Source: a virus
DNA length: 31,278 bases
Virus record (IMG/VR): IMGVR_UViG_3300023049_000035
Coordinates: 1 to 31,278 of that record
Strand: one strand, 5' to 3'
The position numbers and the translations under genes are program-made. Position 1 is the stretch's first letter; every line of letters begins with the position of its first letter. The notes beneath the pieces were generated by a model, which worked only from the letters and a program-made list of their open reading frames with translations, had not been told where the DNA came from and searched no databases. Below are positions 4,029 to 28,112 of this stretch, in pieces.

Positions 4029-5285
4029 ATGTCTAATACTATCATTCACAAGACCTCTTCCGTAGCAGGTAAAGTACCAGAAACCACAGACTTGTCTCTG
4101 GGCGAACTGGCTACTAATACCAATGACGGCCTTCTCTTTCTTAAGAAAGACGATGGGGTCGAAGAGATAGTTACGATAGGACAACTTGCACACGACTTCC
4201 TTCCTCCGGAAACTCGTATTCAATTCCCAAGGAATAAACCACTACCCAATGGTTGGTACAACCTAGCTGACGCAGAGTTTGGCCCCCTTCTCTCTATTAC
4301 CAACGTTACCTCGGATGATATGATTCTCCGTGTAAAAACGGACAACGCTGGTGTTAGTACTTCCTCGCAGATGCTTCTCCCTGGAAGAACTTTTAGAGAC
4401 TACGACTTTACTATCGACTGGGGGGATGGTACCGTCGAAGCCTTGGACAATACAGACTTTACAGCTGTTAGTGGTATTGATGGGTTCCTTCACACATACT
4501 CTTCTGCCGGCACCTACACGATTAGGATCAATGGCATCTACGATGAATTGTATTTTACTGGCCAAGGTGATGAAGAGAAGCTTGTCGAGTTTGCTAACTG
4601 GGGTGACATTCCTTTCCACCGTCTTGAGTTCGCATTCAAAGGTTGTGTAAATTGCTACTTTACGTTTGGCGACAACCCCAATGTAGGCCCTCGTGATGAT
4701 GCCATTGATCAATTGTTTAATGGCTGCGACTTGTTTAATGCAAACGTAACAGGCTGGGACCTATCATCCACATCGGGTGACATGGACTATGTGTTTCTTG
4801 GATGCAGCCTCTTCGAAGGTGTAGGCCTTGAAACGTGGGATGTTAGTGGCGTGGTTAGCATGAGAAGCATGTTTGCTGGCGCAACTATCATGAACCGCGA
4901 CATCTCTGGGTGGGACGTGTCTAGTGTAACAGACTTCAGAGATACGTTTGATAACGCCAAGGCGTTTAATATTGATATCTCTGGCTGGGATGTATCTAGC
5001 GCTACTACTATGGAAGACATGTTCTTTGCAGCTTCCGACTTCAACCAATCCCTGGGGGACTGGGATATTAGTAGTGTTACTGATATGACAGAGATGCTAG
5101 ATTTTACAGACCTAAGTACCGATAACTATGATGATACTCTGATAGGTTGGGCGGCGCAAACCGTACAGCCTAATGTAACTCTCGGCGCTACTAATCTTGA
5201 GTATACTAGTGCAGCAACGTCTGCTCGTAACACGCTGACTAGCGCTCCTAATAACTGGACAATTAACGGGGATACGCTCGTATGA
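4029..5285 (+). CDS. BspA-like (DUF285) repeat tail/adhesin protein
   Basis: A 418-residue protein joining a phage-fibre head to a bacterial-surface-type repeat domain. Residues 1-42 (LSLGELATNTNDGLLFLKK) match the phage fibre head pattern. Residues 98-168 form a PKD-like beta region with IDWGDGT and HTYSSAGTYTI. Residues 240-360 hold about five ~25-residue DUF285 repeats of the form GWDVSSVTDMxxMFxxAxxFNxDIS. The protein ends with NNWTING, typical of the last BspA-type unit. Such repeats mediate surface adhesion in bacteria; here the position and fibre head indicate a virion receptor-binding protein, which is inference. Its last four bases (ATGA) overlap the small terminase start. Confidence 0.8.
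   Translation: MSNTIIHKTSSVAGKVPETTDLSLGELATNTNDGLLFLKKDDGVEEIVTIGQLAHDFLPPETRIQFPRNKPLPNGWYNLADAEFGPLLSITNVTSDDMILRVKTDNAGVSTSSQMLLPGRTFRDYDFTIDWGDGTVEALDNTDFTAVSGIDGFLHTYSSAGTYTIRINGIYDELYFTGQGDEEKLVEFANWGDIPFHRLEFAFKGCVNCYFTFGDNPNVGPRDDAIDQLFNGCDLFNANVTGWDLSSTSGDMDYVFLGCSLFEGVGLETWDVSGVVSMRSMFAGATIMNRDISGWDVSSVTDFRDTFDNAKAFNIDISGWDVSSATTMEDMFFAASDFNQSLGDWDISSVTDMTEMLDFTDLSTDNYDDTLIGWAAQTVQPNVTLGATNLEYTSAATSARNTLTSAPNNWTINGDTLV
4743..5090 (+). repeat. DUF285 coding repeats
   Basis: Tandem units of about 75 bases encode the W-D-[VLI]-S motif followed by a methionine/phenylalanine-rich helix. The best-conserved copies begin near 4908 and 4980 (GGGTGGGACGTGTCTAG and GGCTGGGATGTATCTAG). The repeats are diverged at the DNA level, so the array is old or under selection rather than a fresh amplification. 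Confidence 0.7.
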
Positions 5286-11875: not shown

Positions 11876-12367
11876 ATGACTATCCTACATACAGCTTTAA
11901 CAAGTGCACAGGTTCATGAACCAAAGCACATTACTGGCGCAACCACAGCTGACGCTGGCAAGGTTATCACACCTTCAGAGTCGGCCTCTGGAGCTTCGGT
12001 CCTCAGAAAACTGACTGAAGCAGATATTGACAATCGTATTACAGAGCTATCCGCTCGTATTGATGATATCTCTACGGCTGGTAATGTGTATGTGGTGTCC
12101 CCCTTTACAGGGACGATCACACGTATGCAACTAGTTCTGTTTGATGCAATTGCTACTGCTGATGCGACAGTCACGATTAGGGTGGGGGTAACTGATGTTA
12201 CCTCTATTCTTGTAGAGTATGATGGCTCGGCTGCAGGGGATACATACACAGTCTCCCCAACAGTAGACAACGAGGTCACTGACAGCCAAGCCATTCGCAT
12301 TAGAACCGATGGGGCATCTGACAATTCAGTAAGTGCTATGGTTCTACTGACAATCGTAAGGGATTGA
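11876..12367 (+). CDS. Beta-rich structural protein, unknown
   Basis: A 163-residue protein between the capsid terminator and the tail adaptor gene. The central and C-terminal parts are beta-rich, with TGTITRMQLVLFDAIATADATVTIRVGV-like text split over residues 78-105 and an end in VLLTIVRD. The ITR...T-T-V-G pattern and the ending parallel the 178-residue protein upstream, suggesting a related fold. A virion role (head or head-tail decoration) is inferred from position. AGAG about 9 bases before the ATG is a weak ribosome-binding site. The stop TGA and the next ATG are separated by a single base. Confidence 0.65.
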   Translation: MTILHTALTSAQVHEPKHITGATTADAGKVITPSESASGASVLRKLTEADIDNRITELSARIDDISTAGNVYVVSPFTGTITRMQLVLFDAIATADATVTIRVGVTDVTSILVEYDGSAAGDTYTVSPTVDNEVTDSQAIRIRTDGASDNSVSAMVLLTIVRD

Positions 12368-12368
12368 C

Positions 12369-13190
12369 ATGGCAAGAAACAGGATGACGTTGCTTAAGAT
12401 TGTCCAACTCACGTTGGATGCTCTCGGCAGTACTCCGGTAAACTCTATTTCGGACTCCGTTGAAGCAACACAAATCGCTGAAGAGGCGAGGGTAACCTAC
12501 TACGATCTTATGGATCGTGATGAGTGGCCCCACCTTATCGGTACCATCCAATTAGAATCAGTTAGCGACAGTAATCGTCCTAACTACCTGAAGATACCAC
12601 AGGATGTGACTCGAATCCATGACGTACGGTACGAGGCTACCCAACTGGGTGACCCCTCTACTACCGACAGACAGATCGAGTACCTCACTCCTAAAGGTTT
12701 CCTGAACCTAGTTCAAAAATCACGTGGCTCTAACCAAGATAATGTAATCCAGGTTACGGACTTTGGTGGCTTCGACTACTATGTAATCGACGATACCCCT
12801 CCGATGTACTGGACTTCTTTTGATGATGAGCACGTAGTCTTCGACTCGTATGACTCTGCACAAGAAGTCACTATGAGCGGAAGTAAGTCTACTATCAGGG
12901 CAAAGATTCTTTCTGATTGGACTACTGCAGACGGTTTCATTCCTGACATGCCCGATAACATGTTTGGGACCTTTCTCGCTGAGGTAAGAGCTTCAGCACA
13001 CATGTTCCTAAAGCAAACCCCGTCTCCAAAAGACGAGCAACGGGCACGCCGTGGGATCGCAAAACTTAGACGACAAGCAGCAAAAGTGAGTGAATATGAT
13101 GGACGAGCGCGCTATGGAAGAAAACGTTACAGAACCTATGGAAGCCAAGACGGCGTCCGAGGAAGCATCAACGCAGCACTCTGGCCGTAA
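12369..13190 (+). CDS. Tail tubular protein A (gp11-like adaptor)
   Basis: A 273-residue protein that joins the portal to the nozzle of a short tail. The N-terminus (LLKIVQLTLDALGSTPVNSISDSVEATQIAEEARVTYYDLM-type text over residues 8-50) is the hallmark helix-turn of T7 gp11-like proteins, and DEWPHLIGTIQLE (about 53-65) continues the family pattern. T7 gp11 is 196 residues; this one is longer, with an Arg/Lys-rich C-terminus (about 217-273). It precedes the gp12-like nozzle gene, as in T7. Its last ~95 bases overlap the next gene in another frame. Confidence 0.88.
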   Translation: MARNRMTLLKIVQLTLDALGSTPVNSISDSVEATQIAEEARVTYYDLMDRDEWPHLIGTIQLESVSDSNRPNYLKIPQDVTRIHDVRYEATQLGDPSTTDRQIEYLTPKGFLNLVQKSRGSNQDNVIQVTDFGGFDYYVIDDTPPMYWTSFDDEHVVFDSYDSAQEVTMSGSKSTIRAKILSDWTTADGFIPDMPDNMFGTFLAEVRASAHMFLKQTPSPKDEQRARRGIAKLRRQAAKVSEYDGRARYGRKRYRTYGSQDGVRGSINAALWP

Positions 13191-13490: not shown

Positions 13491-14135
13491 ATGGCCGTCC
13501 AAGGGTCCATTACAAAGAACTATCTAACCTTCGTAGCCGGGTTGATCACAGAAGCCAGTCCTCTTACGTTCCCAGAGAACGCAGCTAAGGACCTGGACAA
13601 TGTGGACCTCCGTCGCGACGGTAGTATTTACCGACGTCTGGGGTTGACTCAGGATTTTGCTGAGTTTTCCACGCTGTCTTTTGATAGAGCAGATATAGAG
13701 AATTGGTACATCTCTACTTTTGTATGGAAATCTGTTGATGGCGATGGAAGCAGAAGCTTTGCTGTTATCCAAGTAGGCCCCAACCTGATCTTCCACAACT
13801 TTGTGGACGATGAAAATATTTCTTCTGCCGTAGGTTATATCGACTTTACACTGGCAGGTATTCGTGATGACTTCGCGTCCTACCCAGTTAAGATGACTCA
13901 GGGTAGAGGGAAGCTTTACGTGGCCAATAAACTAATGAACCCCTTTGCGGTAGAGTTTAATTCTGATGGCCTCTCGTTTACTGGTATACCCCTAACCATG
14001 CAAATTAGGGATATAGACGGGCTAAACGAACGAGAAGATACTACCCCTATTCTTACTGGCAATTCAGCCACCCCACCGGTACCTACTGCGGTACCGAGGG
14101 TAGAGTTCGACCTGCCATTTACTAGTTTGGTTTAA
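13491..14135 (+). CDS. Tail tubular protein B (gp12-like nozzle), N-terminal part
   Basis: A 214-residue protein that looks like only the first quarter of a gp12-type nozzle. The start (NYLTFVAGLITEASPLTFPENAAKDLDNVDLRRDG over residues 8-43) is the classic N-terminus of podovirus tail tube B proteins, and MTQGRGKLYVAN and MQIRDIDGL continue the pattern. The frame then stops at TAA (14133-14135), and the next gene, starting one base later in the +1 frame, continues with NRPSQLTAMHNYNLRNQGW, which in relatives lies in the same polypeptide. The nozzle therefore appears to be encoded in pieces. Possible explanations are a genuine split, frameshifting or a sequence error. Confidence 0.8.
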   Translation: MAVQGSITKNYLTFVAGLITEASPLTFPENAAKDLDNVDLRRDGSIYRRLGLTQDFAEFSTLSFDRADIENWYISTFVWKSVDGDGSRSFAVIQVGPNLIFHNFVDDENISSAVGYIDFTLAGIRDDFASYPVKMTQGRGKLYVANKLMNPFAVEFNSDGLSFTGIPLTMQIRDIDGLNEREDTTPILTGNSATPPVPTAVPRVEFDLPFTSLV

Positions 14136-14136
14136 C

Positions 14137-16302
14137 ATGAGTGATCTGATTACAAATAGGCCCTCCCAGCTTACGGCCATGCACAATTACAACCTCCGTA
14201 ACCAAGGCTGGCCCAGGACTCTCACGTGTGTGCGATCCTTGTCTGACCGAGGTGAAGAGGCTGATCCAGTTGCATACACAAAAGAAGTAGCAAACATCTA
14301 CCCTTCCAACGCAGATGTGGTGTACGCAGCTAAAGCGAGCACAGCTAAAAGGCATTCGGCTATTGGAGCCTACGCCCCTACTGAGTTGAAGAAAGCAGTG
14401 TTTGGTAATACTCCTGCTGGTAAAGGACACTACATTCTCCCTGCTTTCGACAGGAACAGGAGTTTGATTAGCGGGATAGCGGGTTTATACAATCAATCTC
14501 GAGATAAAGATAGGTATCGCCCTACTTCTGTAGAGTTTTTCTCTGGTCGCGTATTCTTTTTGATGCCAGATGGAAAAATACTGTACTCCCAGACTATTGA
14601 GGACAGGGACTTCTCCACTTCCGAAAAGTGCTACCAGGAAGCTGACCCTACTGCAGAAGATATTAATGAGCTGGTCGCCACAGATGGCGGCACCATGGTA
14701 ATCCAGGAAGTTGGGGAAGCCTACAAGCTTACCTCGACCGGAACAGAGTTACTACTGTTTGCAGACAATGGCGTGTGGTCCGTCTCCGGATCGGATCAAT
14801 CGAACTTTAAATCCACAGACTTTAGGGTACGGCGGATTACAAACATTGGTGTGACTGGCGTAGACACTGTCATTACAGCAGAGAGCAATGTTATCTACTG
14901 GGGGCAAGGTGGTATCTACATCCTGTCGTCCGACCAAGTAACTGGTGACCTGCAAGCTCAGAACATATCTGAACAAACTATCCAAGAGTTCTACAACAAC
15001 ATCCTACCTGGGGCTCGTGCAAGCGCTAAGGGCTTCTATGATGAGCGTGAACGCAAAGTCATGTGGATGTATAATGATACTGCTGGGTACGACGGTGTCT
15101 CTTTTAAAAATAAGTACAATAGGATACTGTTCTTTGATGTAGTACGTGGGTCTTTCTACACCTACACAGTAGAGTTCCAAGACCAGATTCCATACATGAC
15201 TTCTCTTCTTCAGAAGGAAGCTACTGGGAATAGGGTAGTACCCAAAGATGTTATTCTTACTACTGACTTCCCAACTGGTACGTTTGTTACTACCTGGACT
15301 CTCGTCGACTTTGGTGCCCTTGAGGACCTTCAAATAGAACTTCCTATCGTTGGAGTTAGCCCGCTTAATTTTTCAGTAGACTGGGGTGATGGTACTCAGG
15401 AAATAATTACCAGTTCTGCCGGTAGGTTCCATACGTACTCAGCGGCCGGTACTTACACAGTAACTATTGGTGGAACCATGCCTAAATGGGACTTCGGCTA
15501 CGGCAGTGCAAGCTTTAATAATGTTAAGATTAGGTCTGTCGAGCAGTGGGGCAATATTGAGTGGGGCGCGGACCTTGGTACGTTCATGGTGGATTGCCAG
15601 AACATAGTGTTTAATGCGCCAGATGTCCCTGATTTCTCTAATGTCACCGACCTCAATTTCGCTTTCGCAGGTTGTGTAAACATTACGTCCTTCCCACCAG
15701 TCGATGTCTCGAATGTAACTAACTTCAACGGGACTTGGCGAGATTGTAGTAGTCTTACTGTTATACCAGCTAGTCTCGACTTCAGTTCTGGCACCACATT
15801 TAACGACACTTGGAGGAGATCAGGGATCACCTCTTTCCCAACATTTAATTTCTCTTCTGCCACTACTATGGACTTTGCATGGGCACAGTGCGATTCGTTA
15901 GTAAACATGTCGTCCCAGCCTAGTACTACGAATGTTACTAGTTTTGCGGCAGCTTGGGCTGGGTGTCATAGTTTGAAAAATCTCTCTGTAAACATGACAT
16001 CCGTGACTGACATCAGGGAGTTGCGAGACGGTCCGTATACAAAACCAGTCAGCGGTCCCACTGCTTTGGAGACATTGCTCTTTACAGGGTTGACTAATAA
16101 TACTGGCATCACTGGGGATGGTCTCTTTCTGCTAAGCCTTGGGCTTAGTGATACAGCTTTGAACCAGTTCTTTGCTGCCCTAGGTACTAATACTACCACT
16201 AACACCACCCTCTACATAGCAGGGAACCCTGGTGCAGCCACTTCCGACCATTCCATAGCCAACAATAAAGGTTGGCTTGTTGACGATAATTTTGGGGCCT
16301 GA
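14137..16302 (+). CDS. Tail nozzle middle part fused to a BspA-like domain
   Basis: A 721-residue two-part protein. Residues 1-360 are the central part of a gp12-type nozzle (NYNLRNQGWP near 17-26; FDRNRSLISGIAG; FFSGRVFFLMPDGKILYSQ; WGQGGIYILS; ASAKGFYDERERKVMWMY). From about residue 365-383 it changes into a BspA-like module: FVTTW, then VDWGDGT (414-420) and FHTYSAAGTYTVTI (431-444), then serine/threonine-rich repeats with WRDCSSL, WAQCDSL and WAGCHSL (about 505-630), ending in IANNKGWLV. The C-terminal nozzle domain is absent here and is encoded by the next gene in the same frame after a TGA. No clear Shine-Dalgarno sequence precedes the ATG, which is one base after the previous stop, so coupling or frameshifting is likely. 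Confidence 0.82.
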   Translation: MSDLITNRPSQLTAMHNYNLRNQGWPRTLTCVRSLSDRGEEADPVAYTKEVANIYPSNADVVYAAKASTAKRHSAIGAYAPTELKKAVFGNTPAGKGHYILPAFDRNRSLISGIAGLYNQSRDKDRYRPTSVEFFSGRVFFLMPDGKILYSQTIEDRDFSTSEKCYQEADPTAEDINELVATDGGTMVIQEVGEAYKLTSTGTELLLFADNGVWSVSGSDQSNFKSTDFRVRRITNIGVTGVDTVITAESNVIYWGQGGIYILSSDQVTGDLQAQNISEQTIQEFYNNILPGARASAKGFYDERERKVMWMYNDTAGYDGVSFKNKYNRILFFDVVRGSFYTYTVEFQDQIPYMTSLLQKEATGNRVVPKDVILTTDFPTGTFVTTWTLVDFGALEDLQIELPIVGVSPLNFSVDWGDGTQEIITSSAGRFHTYSAAGTYTVTIGGTMPKWDFGYGSASFNNVKIRSVEQWGNIEWGADLGTFMVDCQNIVFNAPDVPDFSNVTDLNFAFAGCVNITSFPPVDVSNVTNFNGTWRDCSSLTVIPASLDFSSGTTFNDTWRRSGITSFPTFNFSSATTMDFAWAQCDSLVNMSSQPSTTNVTSFAAAWAGCHSLKNLSVNMTSVTDIRELRDGPYTKPVSGPTALETLLFTGLTNNTGITGDGLFLLSLGLSDTALNQFFAALGTNTTTNTTLYIAGNPGAATSDHSIANNKGWLVDDNFGA
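15283..16299 (+). other. BspA-like/PKD cassette inserted in the nozzle
   Basis: The stretch encodes residues 383-721 of the nozzle middle protein and has the same domain order as the separate BspA-like fibre at 4029-5285: [FM]-[VI]-x-T-W/K opening, WGDGT with HTYS-A-GTYT, a WG-[ND]-I element, a degenerate leucine-rich-type repeat region and an NN-x-W ending. It ends with its own stop codon, as if the 3' end of an adhesin gene had been placed inside the nozzle gene. The left edge is approximate. Confidence 0.65.
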
Positions 16303-16305
16303 TCA

Positions 16306-16893
16306 GTGGGTACAATTAATGTCTTTCACGCCGACGACCAAGTAATTGTAAACGTCTTAGAGTCTATCTTTAGCGAGCTCAGTGTAAAAGTACTCAACTT
16401 CAAAGAGACTTCTACAGATGTTTTTCAGTATAACTTTGCAGATTTTAAAAGCCGTACTTTCAAGGATTGGGTCCAAGAAGATGGTGGTATAAACTACCAA
16501 AGTTTTCTAGAAACAGGACATGACTTGCTCGAAGACCCAATCACTATTAAGTATGGTAACTACCTGTACGCATTCTTCTTGAGGACAGAAGATGGGTTTG
16601 ATGATGACCTTAACGCCATGAACCAGAGCTCTTGTCTCTACCGTGCCAAGTGGCACTGGAGTGACAGCGAGGCTAGTGGTAAGTGGTCTCAACAAGAACA
16701 ACTTTACAAACTAAGCCGTCCGTTCTTGCCAGCAAGCGTTAATGATCCCTTTGACTATGGGTTTGAAGTAATCGAAACTCGTAGTAAAATGCGCGGGGAA
16801 GGCAGAGCCTTATCAATAAGATTCGACTCAGAGGAAGGAAAGGACTTTAAACTCCTGGGTTGGGCAATTCCATTTACAGGAGCAGCACGATGA
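16306..16893 (+). CDS. Tail tubular protein B (gp12-like nozzle), C-terminal part
   Basis: A 195-residue protein that matches the C-terminal domain of podovirus tail tube B proteins: SRTFKDWVQEDGG (about residues 49-61), FLRTEDGFDDDLNAMNQSSCLYRAKWHWSDS (split over 91-122), KWSQQEQLYKLSRPF and the closing RGEGRALSIRFDSEEGKDFKLLGW (about 164-188). It is in the same frame as the preceding gene, which ends at TGA 16300-16302; the GTG proposed here lies one codon later. It could be made by restart at this GTG (GGGG about 8 bases upstream) or by readthrough of the TGA. Together the three pieces minus the insert total about 770 residues, close to T7 gp12 (794). Confidence 0.8.
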   Translation: MGTINVFHADDQVIVNVLESIFSELSVKVLNFKETSTDVFQYNFADFKSRTFKDWVQEDGGINYQSFLETGHDLLEDPITIKYGNYLYAFFLRTEDGFDDDLNAMNQSSCLYRAKWHWSDSEASGKWSQQEQLYKLSRPFLPASVNDPFDYGFEVIETRSKMRGEGRALSIRFDSEEGKDFKLLGWAIPFTGAAR

Positions 16894-17348
16894 ATGTAAC
16901 TTACGCAGTAGAAACCTTTGACGAAGCCTTCGGAGAACTTGGAGAACTGTTTGCAGAGAACCACAAAGAGAGTGGCGTCTTCCCAGACAAGATCGACCTC
17001 AATGTTCTGGACGACTTTTACGAGTGGTCTAGTGAGAATGGTAACGTAAGGTTTCATATCGCACGAGATGATGGGAAGGTAGTTGGATACACCGTCACGT
17101 TCATTGGAAACCACCCTCATTACCAAGACAAAGTCTTCGCTACAAATGATGTCTTGTATATCACACCCGATTATCGTAAGACATCTGTGGCTAAAGACTT
17201 GATTGAGTTTGTAGAAAAAGATATGAAAGATACTGGTGTGGATGTAATGTCTTTCCACACTAAGTGTGACAACCCCTGTAGAAAACTAATGGAAAGTGTT
17301 GGCTTTAAAGAAGATGAAATCCAATACTTTAAGTACATAAAGGACTAA
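16890..17348 (+). CDS. GNAT-family N-acetyltransferase
   Basis: A 152-residue protein from the ATG at 16890, chosen over an upstream TTG because AGGAG lies about 8 bases before it and it overlaps the previous stop as ATGA. It has the GNAT pattern: GKVVGYTVTFIG (beta strands), VLYITPDYRKTSVAKDLIEFVEKD (acetyl-CoA loop and helix, split over about 89-112) and a C-terminal NPCRKLMESVGFKED element typical of the family. GNAT enzymes transfer acetyl groups from acetyl-CoA to amines. The usual R/Q-x-x-G-x-G/A loop is degenerate (RKTSVA). Its target is unknown; the location between the tail and internal-protein genes suggests modification of a virion or host protein during late infection. Confidence 0.8.
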   Translation: MNVTYAVETFDEAFGELGELFAENHKESGVFPDKIDLNVLDDFYEWSSENGNVRFHIARDDGKVVGYTVTFIGNHPHYQDKVFATNDVLYITPDYRKTSVAKDLIEFVEKDMKDTGVDVMSFHTKCDNPCRKLMESVGFKEDEIQYFKYIKD

Positions 17349-23254: not shown

Positions 23255-25173
23255 TGGCAGAATTTCGTCAACAAGGACCTGAGGTACAGCCTGTAAGGCG
23301 GGACTTGTCAGGGGCACGCAGGTTCGAAGGAACCGCAGGCTTGGCTGGGGCAGTGCTAGGGTTTCTCCCAGGCTACACTGAGCAGCTCTCTCAGAGTGCT
23401 GATAGAGAGTTCGATAATAAAATCGCCTTAGCACTTACTGACCCCAAGGTTACCGGTATCAACCGTGACCCTGAGACAGAAGAGATTGAAATCTCAGCGG
23501 CTAAGCTTAAGCGAAGTGACGGACAACGTTCGCTGCATAACCAGTCACGTGTACGTGCTACTGTGGAAGCCCGCCGTCTGGCAGAAAAGTACCCTCATCG
23601 GGCAGCCGAAGTATTCCAGAAGTTTGGCCTGATGACTGGGCAACCTATCCTGGCAGCAGCTAGGGATATTGAAGAGGAAGCTCGTCGCCCTATCTTGGAG
23701 CAACAGGCCCAGGTAGACCAGTGGTCTTTGGCCGAAGGCATTTCTCTTTCTGTACCTCGTGCAGAGAGGACAGAGCAGTTCATGAATGCCTCTGCACGTA
23801 TGCAAGAAGCAGCTCAGGCTCGTAGGGAAGTAGAGATTCTACAGAACCAAGGCATCCTTACAAACCACAGGGCACGAAGAACTCTGCAGAAGGAGAGCGG
23901 AGCTCTTTACGAGGAGATGTCAGCTCTTGTAACTCAAATAACCAGTGACATTGATCCTGCTAATATCTCAGCAGCTGATGCTACCGAACGGGTAGCTGAA
24001 TACAGAGGGTTGATTGACTCTCGTATTGACGAAGTGATCGAGTCTTACGACGGCCACATCACACGGCAGGAAGCGGAGCAAATCCTAGCTCCGAGTATTC
24101 GACTTTTCCAAACAGCCGTCGCCTGGGTTAACGGAGAAACTTCTCTTGCCCACCTGGAGAGCGCTAACAAGTTTCTTCGGGAAGCACATGACAATCAGTG
24201 GCTCAACACCCCAGGGTTCCAAGACCTTGAGCGCAGGGCTTCCCTGATCAGGGACTTGCCGGCTAACTGGGGCACCCCGCTAGTCCAAGCCAGGGAAGGT
24301 AACGCCTTCTTTAAAGAGTACAAGGCAGTATTGGAAGCTAACCGCAGAGTTAGGAATGGGAACTCTAACCCTATCGCTGATGGCCAAGAAGAAGGTATGT
24401 CAGACAGGGAACTTGGCAGACTCACAGAATCTGCTATGAAGTACTTGGCAAGTGTTAGTCAGAACGAGGATGCAAATCCAATCGAGGTGGCTACAGCTAC
24501 TGAAATGGTTCTCACTGCATACACAAACCAATTCTCAGAAGACCCCTCCAGTGTACCTACTAGCGTATACGACTCTGTTCTCTTTGCTCTTGGTGACTCT
24601 CAGGTAGGACCATGGCTCAACGACGTCGGCGCCTTCGGAGAGAATGCTCAGGCCTTCCGTAACTACAGGCGCATGACGCAAAGGTACATGAGAGACATCA
24701 CGGAAGACGTGGCCTCAGAAGTACAGCGTCTTAGTACAGATCCAAATGTATCCTCCGTAGCGTCTGCCGCTTTCTCCCTCCCGTTTGGTGGGATTAGTAC
24801 AGTAGGCCGTAGTATCAGGGAGATGACGAGAGGTATCATCGAGTTCGACATCAAGAATGATGGACGTGTGGTAGCCACCCCTGTTAACTCCGGTGACAGG
24901 AGGATGTCAGACGCAGCTGACTCGTTTAACGAGAAATACTCTGACCGTTTCGGCATGGTATCCAGGTCACAAGCCCACTTGTTCGGCCTTACTTCTAGCG
25001 ACGACTATAAGCAAGCGGCTAATAGATTCTTGGATGGAGCAGGCCTTGATACCCCAGACCCAGACACTCTTAACAGTGCTTCGATGGACAGGGCTATTGA
25101 GAACCTTCGAGCTCAAGGATTCTCCGAAGAGCAAATTCAAATGGCAGTTGAAGAGTACAGGAACCAACAATAA
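23254..25173 (+). CDS. Internal virion protein (gp15-like)
   Basis: A 639-residue, strongly helical, Glu/Arg/Ala-rich protein next to the giant ejection protein. The N-terminus (about residues 28-45, GLAGAVLGFLPGYTEQL) is mildly hydrophobic and the rest soluble. Size and context match T7 gp15 (747 residues), which forms the periplasmic part of the ejection channel together with gp16. In T7 the order is 14-15-16, whereas here the longer protein comes first. No enzyme motif is visible. It overlaps both neighbours by one base (TAATG), consistent with balanced co-translation. Confidence 0.72.
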   Translation: MAEFRQQGPEVQPVRRDLSGARRFEGTAGLAGAVLGFLPGYTEQLSQSADREFDNKIALALTDPKVTGINRDPETEEIEISAAKLKRSDGQRSLHNQSRVRATVEARRLAEKYPHRAAEVFQKFGLMTGQPILAAARDIEEEARRPILEQQAQVDQWSLAEGISLSVPRAERTEQFMNASARMQEAAQARREVEILQNQGILTNHRARRTLQKESGALYEEMSALVTQITSDIDPANISAADATERVAEYRGLIDSRIDEVIESYDGHITRQEAEQILAPSIRLFQTAVAWVNGETSLAHLESANKFLREAHDNQWLNTPGFQDLERRASLIRDLPANWGTPLVQAREGNAFFKEYKAVLEANRRVRNGNSNPIADGQEEGMSDRELGRLTESAMKYLASVSQNEDANPIEVATATEMVLTAYTNQFSEDPSSVPTSVYDSVLFALGDSQVGPWLNDVGAFGENAQAFRNYRRMTQRYMRDITEDVASEVQRLSTDPNVSSVASAAFSLPFGGISTVGRSIREMTRGIIEFDIKNDGRVVATPVNSGDRRMSDAADSFNEKYSDRFGMVSRSQAHLFGLTSSDDYKQAANRFLDGAGLDTPDPDTLNSASMDRAIENLRAQGFSEEQIQMAVEEYRNQQ

Positions 25174-28112
25174 TGGCCTCCCCTAAACTCCTGAAAAGAG
25201 CTGTAGACCCCACAGAAGTAACTCGGATTGAGAAGGCGTTAAGTCAGTCTATCAGTCGTCAGCAGAGGATTGGCGAAGAGTCCGACGTTATTACCCAAGA
25301 GCTACGGAAGTTCATTGACAGTGAGCAAGGTCAACTTGCTGGTGAAGTCGGTGATCGTGTGGCTAGGGAGAGGGCGTCTGAACCTAAGTTTGATGGTACA
25401 GGCCCAAGGCCTCACCAACAACAGCAGCGTCAGCGTCAAGAGACCTTCATAGGTCTTTCTGGTATGAGGTCTCGTGCTGTCAATAACCCTGAAGAAGCAA
25501 CCAATATCTCCAGGGCCACGGATATGAATGTGGATGGGCATAGTGCCAGGGAAATCTGGGAAGAGACTGGTGTAATCTATGGCCCTGATGGCCACCGTCG
25601 CATGGAAATCCCTGACTACGACATGGATTACAACAAGCCTCTGATGGATCACATACTGGTAAATGGGCCAGGGTCTCTCGTTAGACTTGAGGCATTGGTT
25701 AAGCATGATGGACTTAGGGAAGTCTACCCTGAAATCTTCTCCACTAGGGTCAGGGTCATTACCCGCCCGGAAAAGTTCATTGCTAGGGTACAGTTTCAGA
25801 CAGCAGAAGGCAAGCCTGTAATCGAAGTAAATCAAAACTACTTCAAAGAACTCAATGCATACGAACAGAGTGCTGTTGTCATGCATGAGGTACAGCATAT
25901 TATTCAGAATCTAGAAGGCTTGCCCGCTGGTACTAACCCTAACTTCGAGGCTCTCCGTTACCTGCAGAACAATATCCCTGAAAACTTGTTGGGCCACATT
26001 CCTGGTGGACCAGACCCGGCTGGAAGCCTTCTCTCTACTACGAGGAGTATCCTTAATGATCTAGTTAGAGGGGCTGCCGAAAGAGAATTAACCCCTGCTG
26101 AACGTCAGGATATGATGAAATACGTTCAGATTGAAAAGCTAGCAGCAAGGGCTATTCAGGAGGGCCGCTCTGCATACTTCCGTAACATCGGTGAGGTGGA
26201 AGCGTTTGATGTGGAGAACCGTCTCGAAGCTATGGGGCTCCTCGACGATTTCCCACCTGCCCTTATCCAAGCATTGGAGGAAGACCATCTCGACAAACTA
26301 TACCAAAGACAAAACGAGGGGCCAGGTATCTCAGAAGCCCGTGGCAGACGCCCAGGCGGACGTACTACAGACCCTCGCAGGCTCCCCTCCCTCCTGCCTA
26401 ACGGCATCCACTATGACAACAACGGCTTCCCCTTCAAGGTTAAGGACAGGCGCATAGTTCGTATGTCTGACGAGGAGACGGAAGAGGCACTTACAAATGC
26501 ACCCTTGACTGGGGAAGAGATTGATGAATCTGTCCTGATCCAGAGGGCTAGGCAAGAGAGCCAGGAACGAGCTCGTAAGGCTAGGCAGACCAAGCTGGAT
26601 AACGAGAAGAAAGCTCGTCAACAGAAAGAGATGGAGGATTTCAAGAACTCCGAAGAGTTCAGGAGACTCCAAGAACAGTCCCTCTCAAGGGTACAACGTG
26701 CACGAGAGCAACGGTTTAGGGAGTCTGAAGAGTTCCAAGAGCTGCAACGACAGAACTTGAACCGTAGCAGAACTGCGCTGGGACAAAAGCCAGAAGAAGC
26801 TCCAACCCCTCAGTCAGAGCCTACTACTGCCAGTACCCAAAACACTTCGAAGCCAGAAGATAGCTTCGAGAAGAAAAAGAAAGATGCTATCGCAAGGGGT
26901 AAGGATAAGAGGGAAGGTAATGTTGAGGAAAGCAAGGAGAGCCTGCTTGCTGGACAGCAAGGGCAGTTCGATGAAGCAAGGCTAGCAGCAGAGAACGAGG
27001 TATTCGCTGCTCAACGAGACTCTATCTTCGAGCCTGCCACTATGGCTCAGATGGATGATGTTGCCTTGTTTGAGGACATGCAAGGTTTCCTTGATGAAAC
27101 CAATGCTCTTGTGGCAGATGGTAAACTACCTGAAGACAGGGCCCAGTCTCTCCTTAATCTCTACCTTGAGAGAGTAGATGCAGCTGGTAAGTCTGACCAG
27201 ATAGAAGATATGCTGTCCAAGCAGGAGACTACTCCTCAGCAGCAACAGGCACAAGCCCAAGGACGCCCACTGTTCCGTGGACTTAAGCCTAATGGACGCC
27301 CACGTGGCTACCCAGGCGAGTTCTACACAGAACTAGAAGGCCTTGCGGGCAGGTACGCCGGTGCAGATGGGTCCATGATCACACGTGAAGAGCTACCAGA
27401 GCAGCCCTTTAACGTGGACGCTGTAGCAGACATGCCTCAGGAAGAGCGTATGCAGATGCTGAGTGAGTTCACTGAGTTTATGAAGGCTCGCCATCCGGGT
27501 GTCCCTGAGGAAGAGCTCATTGGGCCAGGTCAATCAGACTTTGCCTACCTAGACCGGGTACTTGGAGAGCCTTTCGAGACTGACTTCATCTACCCTACTC
27601 AGGATGATGTAGACTTCTTGAGAAGCAAAGGGTATGACTCTGTATTCTTTGGACAAGAGGGTGGAGAAGAAGTGAACAGCTGGTTCATCTTCGATCAGCC
27701 TGAAGCTAGGCAGCCTACTCCTCAACAGCAGCCTCAAGCACAAGCTTTTAGGCCTGGTATGGCCACACAAAGAAACGAGTTTGGCGACACAGCCGCAGCA
27801 TTTAGCACTGTCAATATGACAGAAGACGGTGGCAGTAGGTTCCTCAAACAGATCACTAAAGACCAACTAGAGAGGAATGTTTCCGTCTCGCTTAAGAACC
27901 CCATCCGGCTGAAGGACGGGGGCAGGTTGTCTGGATTCACTGATCCGATAACTCAGACTACCATGTATGGGTACAACAAGAACGGAGAGCTATTCACTTG
28001 GAGACGAGGAAGTATCGACCCTGAAGAACTTGTATCCTCAAGAGACAACAATAAGACTAGAGACGCTCTCAAAGAGTTCTTAGAGACTCAAAGAAACAAA
28101 GGCAATCTCTAA
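25173..28112 (+). CDS. Polyvalent virion protein with HExxH metallopeptidase-like domain and possible ART-like domain
   Basis: A 979-residue multidomain protein closing the late operon. Residues 180-350 form a zinc-peptidase-like domain: VVMHEVQHIIQ contains HEVQH (238-242), followed by EGLPAGTNP and a possible third ligand in NIGEVEAF (E341/E343). This arrangement recalls phage polyvalent-protein-associated domains with HEIQH...GEVEAR. Residues 450-600 are a charged coiled coil. Residues 698-845 (PLFRGLKP, GEFYTELEGLAGRYAG, GYDSVFF, WFIFDQPEA) resemble ADP-ribosyltransferase-like domains of polyvalent proteins, less certainly. Gln/Pro-rich linkers flank that region (688-697, 850-858). It is probably packaged and ejected, and may act on host proteins; this is inference. 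Confidence 0.72.
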   Translation: MASPKLLKRAVDPTEVTRIEKALSQSISRQQRIGEESDVITQELRKFIDSEQGQLAGEVGDRVARERASEPKFDGTGPRPHQQQQRQRQETFIGLSGMRSRAVNNPEEATNISRATDMNVDGHSAREIWEETGVIYGPDGHRRMEIPDYDMDYNKPLMDHILVNGPGSLVRLEALVKHDGLREVYPEIFSTRVRVITRPEKFIARVQFQTAEGKPVIEVNQNYFKELNAYEQSAVVMHEVQHIIQNLEGLPAGTNPNFEALRYLQNNIPENLLGHIPGGPDPAGSLLSTTRSILNDLVRGAAERELTPAERQDMMKYVQIEKLAARAIQEGRSAYFRNIGEVEAFDVENRLEAMGLLDDFPPALIQALEEDHLDKLYQRQNEGPGISEARGRRPGGRTTDPRRLPSLLPNGIHYDNNGFPFKVKDRRIVRMSDEETEEALTNAPLTGEEIDESVLIQRARQESQERARKARQTKLDNEKKARQQKEMEDFKNSEEFRRLQEQSLSRVQRAREQRFRESEEFQELQRQNLNRSRTALGQKPEEAPTPQSEPTTASTQNTSKPEDSFEKKKKDAIARGKDKREGNVEESKESLLAGQQGQFDEARLAAENEVFAAQRDSIFEPATMAQMDDVALFEDMQGFLDETNALVADGKLPEDRAQSLLNLYLERVDAAGKSDQIEDMLSKQETTPQQQQAQAQGRPLFRGLKPNGRPRGYPGEFYTELEGLAGRYAGADGSMITREELPEQPFNVDAVADMPQEERMQMLSEFTEFMKARHPGVPEEELIGPGQSDFAYLDRVLGEPFETDFIYPTQDDVDFLRSKGYDSVFFGQEGGEEVNSWFIFDQPEARQPTPQQQPQAQAFRPGMATQRNEFGDTAAAFSTVNMTEDGGSRFLKQITKDQLERNVSVSLKNPIRLKDGGRLSGFTDPITQTTMYGYNKNGELFTWRRGSIDPEELVSSRDNNKTRDALKEFLETQRNKGNL

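Follow-up and report, generated by a model that had tools for sequence, protein, structure and literature searches.

The nozzle of a phage tail keeps the pressurised DNA inside and gates its exit from the tail. In all solved podophages described in the literature we examined, the nozzle is a single chain. In T7 the nozzle protein gp12 consists of a seven-bladed propeller, of which blade 3 is opened by the nozzle-tip domain, a platform made of N-terminal strands together with the C-terminal domain, and a fibre dock that connects the end of the propeller with the platform (PMC6702177). Extra domains on such a gp12-type propeller are found in the SU10 nozzle (PMC9509320) and the crAss001 muzzle (PMC10172136), where the propeller takes up Ig-like domains between its second and third blades. 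The nozzle of Vibrio phage ICP2 (Zobellviridae) is encoded by a single gene, gp9 (734 aa).

The stretch of DNA analysed here (the window, 31,278 nucleotides) is a 31.3-kb fragment of an ICP2-like marine phage. Its structural genes are found in the same order as in ICP2 (fibre genes, terminase, portal, scaffold, capsid, adaptor, nozzle, acetyltransferase, internal virion proteins), with the nozzle region at the place expected for a gp12-type nozzle gene, between the adaptor and the internal virion proteins. ICP2 gp9 has the same place and belongs to the same protein family (PHROG 8094), but whereas the T7 and ICP2 nozzles are one polypeptide, the window has three consecutive frames and an added PKD-BspA module. 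No second nozzle gene was seen in the window. A search for closer relatives with the adaptor, the third nozzle frame and a fibre gene returned solely a near-identical contig and distant ones. Several neighbouring genes were also observed: an acetyltransferase gene (16890-17348) overlaps the stop of the third nozzle frame (ATGA) and is likewise located 3' of the nozzle in ICP2 and SIO1, a fibre gene with collagen-like Gly-X-Y repeats (684-2240) has an N-terminus that is 35% identical to that of ICP2 gp25, and 25173-28112 encodes a protein of 979 aa that has an LPD23 domain and matches a phage metallopeptidase weakly.

Three frames for one nozzle

The features of the nozzle region, and of a related fibre gene, are as follows.

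13491-14135, plus strand: ORF1, N-terminal nozzle chain, 214 aa (PHROG 8094 positions 5-184, E 2.5e-26)
14133-14139, plus strand: ORF1/ORF2 junction, TAA-C-ATG with a 1-nt spacer (direct sequence)
14137-16302, plus strand: ORF2, whole middle frame, 721 aa
14137-15250, plus strand: ORF2 part 1, central nozzle domain (PHROG 8094 positions 187-545, E 4.3e-78)
15251-15480, plus strand: ORF2 part 2, PKD-like domain (Pfam PKD E 2e-3, WGDG motif, AF2 strands)
15481-16299, plus strand: ORF2 part 3, BspA/DUF285-type leucine-rich repeats and C-terminal cap (phrog_34853/9915, fold)
16300-16308, plus strand: ORF2/ORF3 junction, TGA-TCA-GTG in the same frame (direct sequence)
16306-16893, plus strand: ORF3, C-terminal nozzle chain, 195 aa (PHROG 8094 positions 582-761, E 3.8e-44)
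4029-5285, plus strand: tail-fibre-like gene with a related PKD and DUF285 module (Pfam DUF285 E 2.5e-36, fibre-type N-terminus)

The original prediction held that three consecutive frames encode the N-terminal, central and C-terminal domains of one gp12-type protein, and this was confirmed. ORF1, ORF2 and ORF3 match PHROG 8094 ('tail appendage', 769 positions), the nozzle family of the Zobellviridae, in order, without overlap and far beyond chance. Mapped on L028, the intact nozzle of a relative (788 aa) that served as reference, ORF1 corresponds to residues 7-184, ORF2 to residues 185-580 and ORF3 to residues 587-787, with 0 residues of L028 missing at the cut between the N-terminal and central domains (the N/C cut) and 6 at the cut between the central and C-terminal domains (the C/T cut). 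Since the three pieces cover PHROG 8094 and L028 almost without gaps, no core sequence was lost at either cut, and together they make up a whole-length member of the family. The 214- and 195-residue proteins indeed align with its ends, and without the insert the total is near 770 residues, as had been predicted. The central domain takes up about residues 1-375 of ORF2, and ORF1 ends in a new C-terminal tail of ~30 residues. ORF2 is in frame +1 relative to ORF1, while ORF3 is in the frame of ORF2, separated from it by the TGA and one codon; it starts with GTG, and no clear Shine-Dalgarno sequence was found before this GTG. Other genes of the window are joined in the style of ORF1 and ORF2, for instance by TGA-C-ATG at 12365-12371.

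Sixty intact relatives were aligned and an AlphaFold model was made of L028 (mean pLDDT 89.4). The best matches of this model among solved structures were podophage nozzles, those of cyanophage A4 (first, at E 2e-28), Pa223, LME-1, T7 gp12 (E 3e-19), SU10, P22 gp10 and others. The A4 nozzle was the sole solved nozzle that was matched by sequence too (E 2.5e-13), whereas T7 gp12 was undetected in the profile comparison, so that the link to T7 rests on the fold. The label 'gp12-type' is thus correct at the level of the modelled fold, the propeller and platform being those of the intact relative L028.

The boundaries of tip, fibre dock and platform were transferred from T7 by the order of secondary structure elements, not by superposed coordinates. 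By this analogy ORF1 would comprise the platform strands and the first propeller blades, the central domain of ORF2 the tip and the rest of the propeller, and ORF3 the fibre dock and the platform. The N/C cut would then lie at the entrance to the nozzle tip, the C/T cut would separate the propeller from the fibre dock, and a cut within the terminal domain of certain relatives (described below) would lie between fibre dock and platform, which makes all three candidate domain boundaries.

The module at the end of the middle chain

The middle chain has at its C-terminal end a module of ~340 residues that combines a PKD-like domain with BspA/DUF285-type leucine-rich repeats, in line with the prediction of a BspA/PKD module of this size between the central and C-terminal domains. 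Both parts scored below the Pfam gathering score (PKD E 2e-3; DUF285/BspA repeats E 0.25), and the repeats match phrog_34853 (E 1e-7) and phrog_9915 (E 5e-7). A profile of 27 homologues, which includes the module itself, gives it an E of 7e-91, and the WGDG motif of the PKD-like domain is invariant among homologues. A model of the module (pLDDT 80.9) matched stand-alone phage PKD/BspA proteins, the best being M4QPG4 of S-SKS1 (E 1e-14), which have the same two-part module but are not joined to a nozzle. In a fold search of the PDB with the module there were no matches below E 0.01, the best of several weak matches to leucine-rich repeats being at E 0.015.

Of 35 homologues checked, most have a C-terminal cap (W-[TSV]-I-x-D-G-G) directly after which the protein ends. 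ORF2 likewise ends in a cap-like sequence (GWLVDDNFGA-stop), as the homologues do, which suggests that the module arrived together with its own stop. The module thus ends the middle polypeptide, and of the predicted 'adhesin built into the tail tube' the presence of the module stands, while the architecture has to be revised from an internal insert to C-terminal display on a separate chain. By comparison with T7 the module would be located at the boundary of propeller and fibre dock, not in the tube wall. This also sets it apart from the additions in SU10 and crAss001, which are in-line, at the tip and within a single chain, whereas the module of the window is attached to a new C-terminus before the putative fibre dock.

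From its domain type, the module is a putative adhesin. A related module, 33% identical to that of the nozzle, ends the fibre-like gene at 4029-5285. That gene is part of a fibre cluster directly upstream of the terminase genes, like ICP2 gp23. In ICP2 the host-range genes are gp23 and gp25 (PMC10264812), which likewise belong to the fibre cluster that precedes the terminase, and in phage Hep4 a single substitution in tail tubular protein B alters the host range (PMC10904470). By analogy with these cases, and given the module in the fibre gene, a role in host contact is plausible.

Split nozzle genes in the Zobellviridae

A second assembly, IMG/VR 3300028412_000033 (18 kb), has the same arrangement and is identical to the window throughout 13491-16893, while about 13 site differences and one 3-nt indel were found over the 18 kb. 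Viral contigs were furthermore scanned with alignments of the central domain and then with profiles of the N-terminal (N), central (C) and terminal (T) domains; only the best 80 loci per scan, ranked by similarity, were kept, and the counts are therefore no unbiased frequencies. Among the resulting 156 distinct loci the nozzle gene was intact in 120, split at N/C in 7, split inside T in 12 and split inside C in 1; in 3 it breaks off within T, close to the locus end, and 13 are cut by contig ends. The nozzle is thus in one frame in 120 of the 143 classifiable loci. The three that end in the last domain (L165, L205 and L206) stop before a second piece could follow and were not counted as split. 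The PKD-BspA module was found in none of the other nozzle loci of this survey.

The phages with an N/C split (that of the window and L042-L045, L122 and L124) form one clade (SH-aLRT 99) of seven distinct phages from several metagenomes, the relatives being at 48-51% identity. In the six relatives stop and start either share 1 nt or have 2 nt between them, so that over the clade the spacing is -1, +1 or +2 nt and the relative frame varies. The first genes gained tails of ~30-65 residues, with a motif (SP.vFGDd.TPp..DP) that is common to the six other phages and weaker and partly kept in the window. The second genes start with a Met that directly precedes the segment known as RPttL from intact relatives. 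The N/C junction in six further phages and the arrangement in the second assembly show that an error does not account for the split. The C/T split with the BspA module was found solely in this phage, in its two near-identical assemblies, and is thus without independent conservation.

In the 12 loci with a split inside T the cut is near L028 residues 680-700, and the last ~95 residues (PHROG 8094 positions ~678-766) are a separate gene. Seven of these 12 have an intervening gene whose product begins with a sequence similar to FIDGFDHY; the two such genes that were tested matched phrog_2448. L033 and L034 have other genes between the pieces and L218 has none, while in L199 and L233 a VWA domain (Pfam 4.5e-13 and 1e-9) is fused to the new C-terminus of the first nozzle chain (L199:8423-8932 and L233:7210-8820). 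The first chain of L067, L093, L197, L198, L200, L207 and L214, also phages with a split inside T, ends in 2-3 copies of an RVTQSVxEVL-like peptide, possibly a docking peptide for the product of the following gene. On the tree this type requires 2 changes if it is taken to include the three truncated loci and 5 otherwise. Some members of the group have been cultured, namely phages of Vibrio breoganii, of which 1.034.X and 1.015.O were assigned by profile and 1.209.O and 1.139.A by annotation; from this it follows that phages with a split nozzle are infective. Their nozzle gene is split like that of the window, and an accessory gene lies between the pieces, but the cut is inside the C-terminal part (by analogy at the boundary of fibre dock and platform) and there is no BspA module. 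In 1.034.X, 1.209.O and 1.139.A (L033, L352 and L353) the nozzle genes are upstream of the adaptor, the reverse of the usual order.

Other variants were found as well. Two phages from oyster metagenomes, L036 (PQ867850) and L355 (PQ867848), have a split in the central domain, with two nozzle genes of roughly 350-400 aa each. L004 has an uncut nozzle of 1168 aa with an in-line insert of ~450 aa at the C/T site of the window. Nozzle fission is thus recurrent in the Zobellviridae, at several sites and in cultured infective phages. No description of a split nozzle was found in the literature searched, a search that was incomplete and does not prove novelty.

Probable gene fission and its alternatives

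A sequencing or assembly error, or decay of a nozzle gene whose single frame was broken by mutation, seems very improbable to us. The record is derived from a metagenome and the C/T split is known from this phage only, but seven distinct phages, which come from several metagenomes, share the N/C split, the second assembly has the same sequence here and real polymorphism elsewhere, all nozzle domains are complete, and no second nozzle was seen in the window, whose structural genes are in ICP2 order. For the N/C split this explanation is already contradicted. Recoding, by a frameshift between ORF1 and ORF2 and/or readthrough of the TGA at 16300-16302, would give a nozzle fused into one chain, possibly in minor amounts, in which the module is internal. 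As ORF3 has a GTG start and the frame of ORF2, with just TGA-TCA between them, readthrough is possible, and the insert of L004 indicates that an in-line addition is tolerated at this site. Nevertheless, the module has its cap just before the TGA, as in its homologues, and at the N/C cut the variable spacing and relative frame argue against a programmed frameshift, no common slippery site being evident across the clade and the split proteins starting with an ATG directly before the conserved segment. A programmed frameshift is therefore not supported, and reassignment of TGA to sense was rejected, since TGA is also the stop of three other assigned genes of the window (ORF3 and two others). Overall we regard recoding as improbable.

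It could also be that the fission is real and that the module, instead of being an adhesin, acts as a structural spacer or as the place where a further fibre docks at the nozzle. The large distal Ig-like insertions in the nozzles of SU10 (PMC9509320) and crAss001 (PMC10172136) have partly structural roles, and the T7 fibres dock beside the comparable site (PMC6702177). On the other hand, related modules occur in a fibre gene of the same phage and in stand-alone proteins of the phage surface type, and another adhesion-type fold, VWA, is found at a comparable position in L199 and L233. We consider such a role rather unlikely.

A natural fission of the nozzle gene, after which separately translated chains reassemble and the added module probably contacts the host, is the explanation that we favour with fair confidence. 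Observed directly were pieces that are full domains in gene order, tight stop/start junctions, an N/C cut conserved in a clade of seven phages and cuts at other sites in other Zobellviridae. Each piece would be translated from its own start by termination-reinitiation, and the three chains would re-associate into a hexameric nozzle as the domains of the one T7 chain do. The fission would leave new chain ends at inter-domain loops, with chain 1 ending in the loop toward the nozzle tip and chain 2 at the passage from propeller to fibre dock. At this latter end chain 2 may have gained the PKD-BspA leucine-rich-repeat module together with the stop of the module. Six modules would then ring the tail near the fibre attachment, probably touching the host surface, and the fibre of the same phage, with its related module, would act alongside them. 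The new chain ends would carry accessory, and probably adhesive, modules.

The pieces of such nozzles are mislabelled by annotation pipelines, for instance the 95-aa end in Vibrio phages, which is called 'head-closure' in 1.015.O and 'hypothetical' in 1.034.X, 1.209.O and 1.139.A. A nozzle of two or three chains raises the question how it is assembled and opened, including whether separate chains ease the opening, and because cultured phages with a split nozzle exist, it is open to testing. We suggest tentatively, at somewhat less than an even chance, that in part of the Zobellviridae the nozzle is a modular assembly of several chains, in which the ends made by repeated fission at inter-domain boundaries are places where host-binding modules (PKD-BspA, VWA and others) are exchanged, so that the gate joins in host recognition while its fold is uninterrupted. 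Should these extra modules bind host cells, contact with the receptor would be coupled physically to the opening of the gate, which is relevant to the question how binding triggers ejection.
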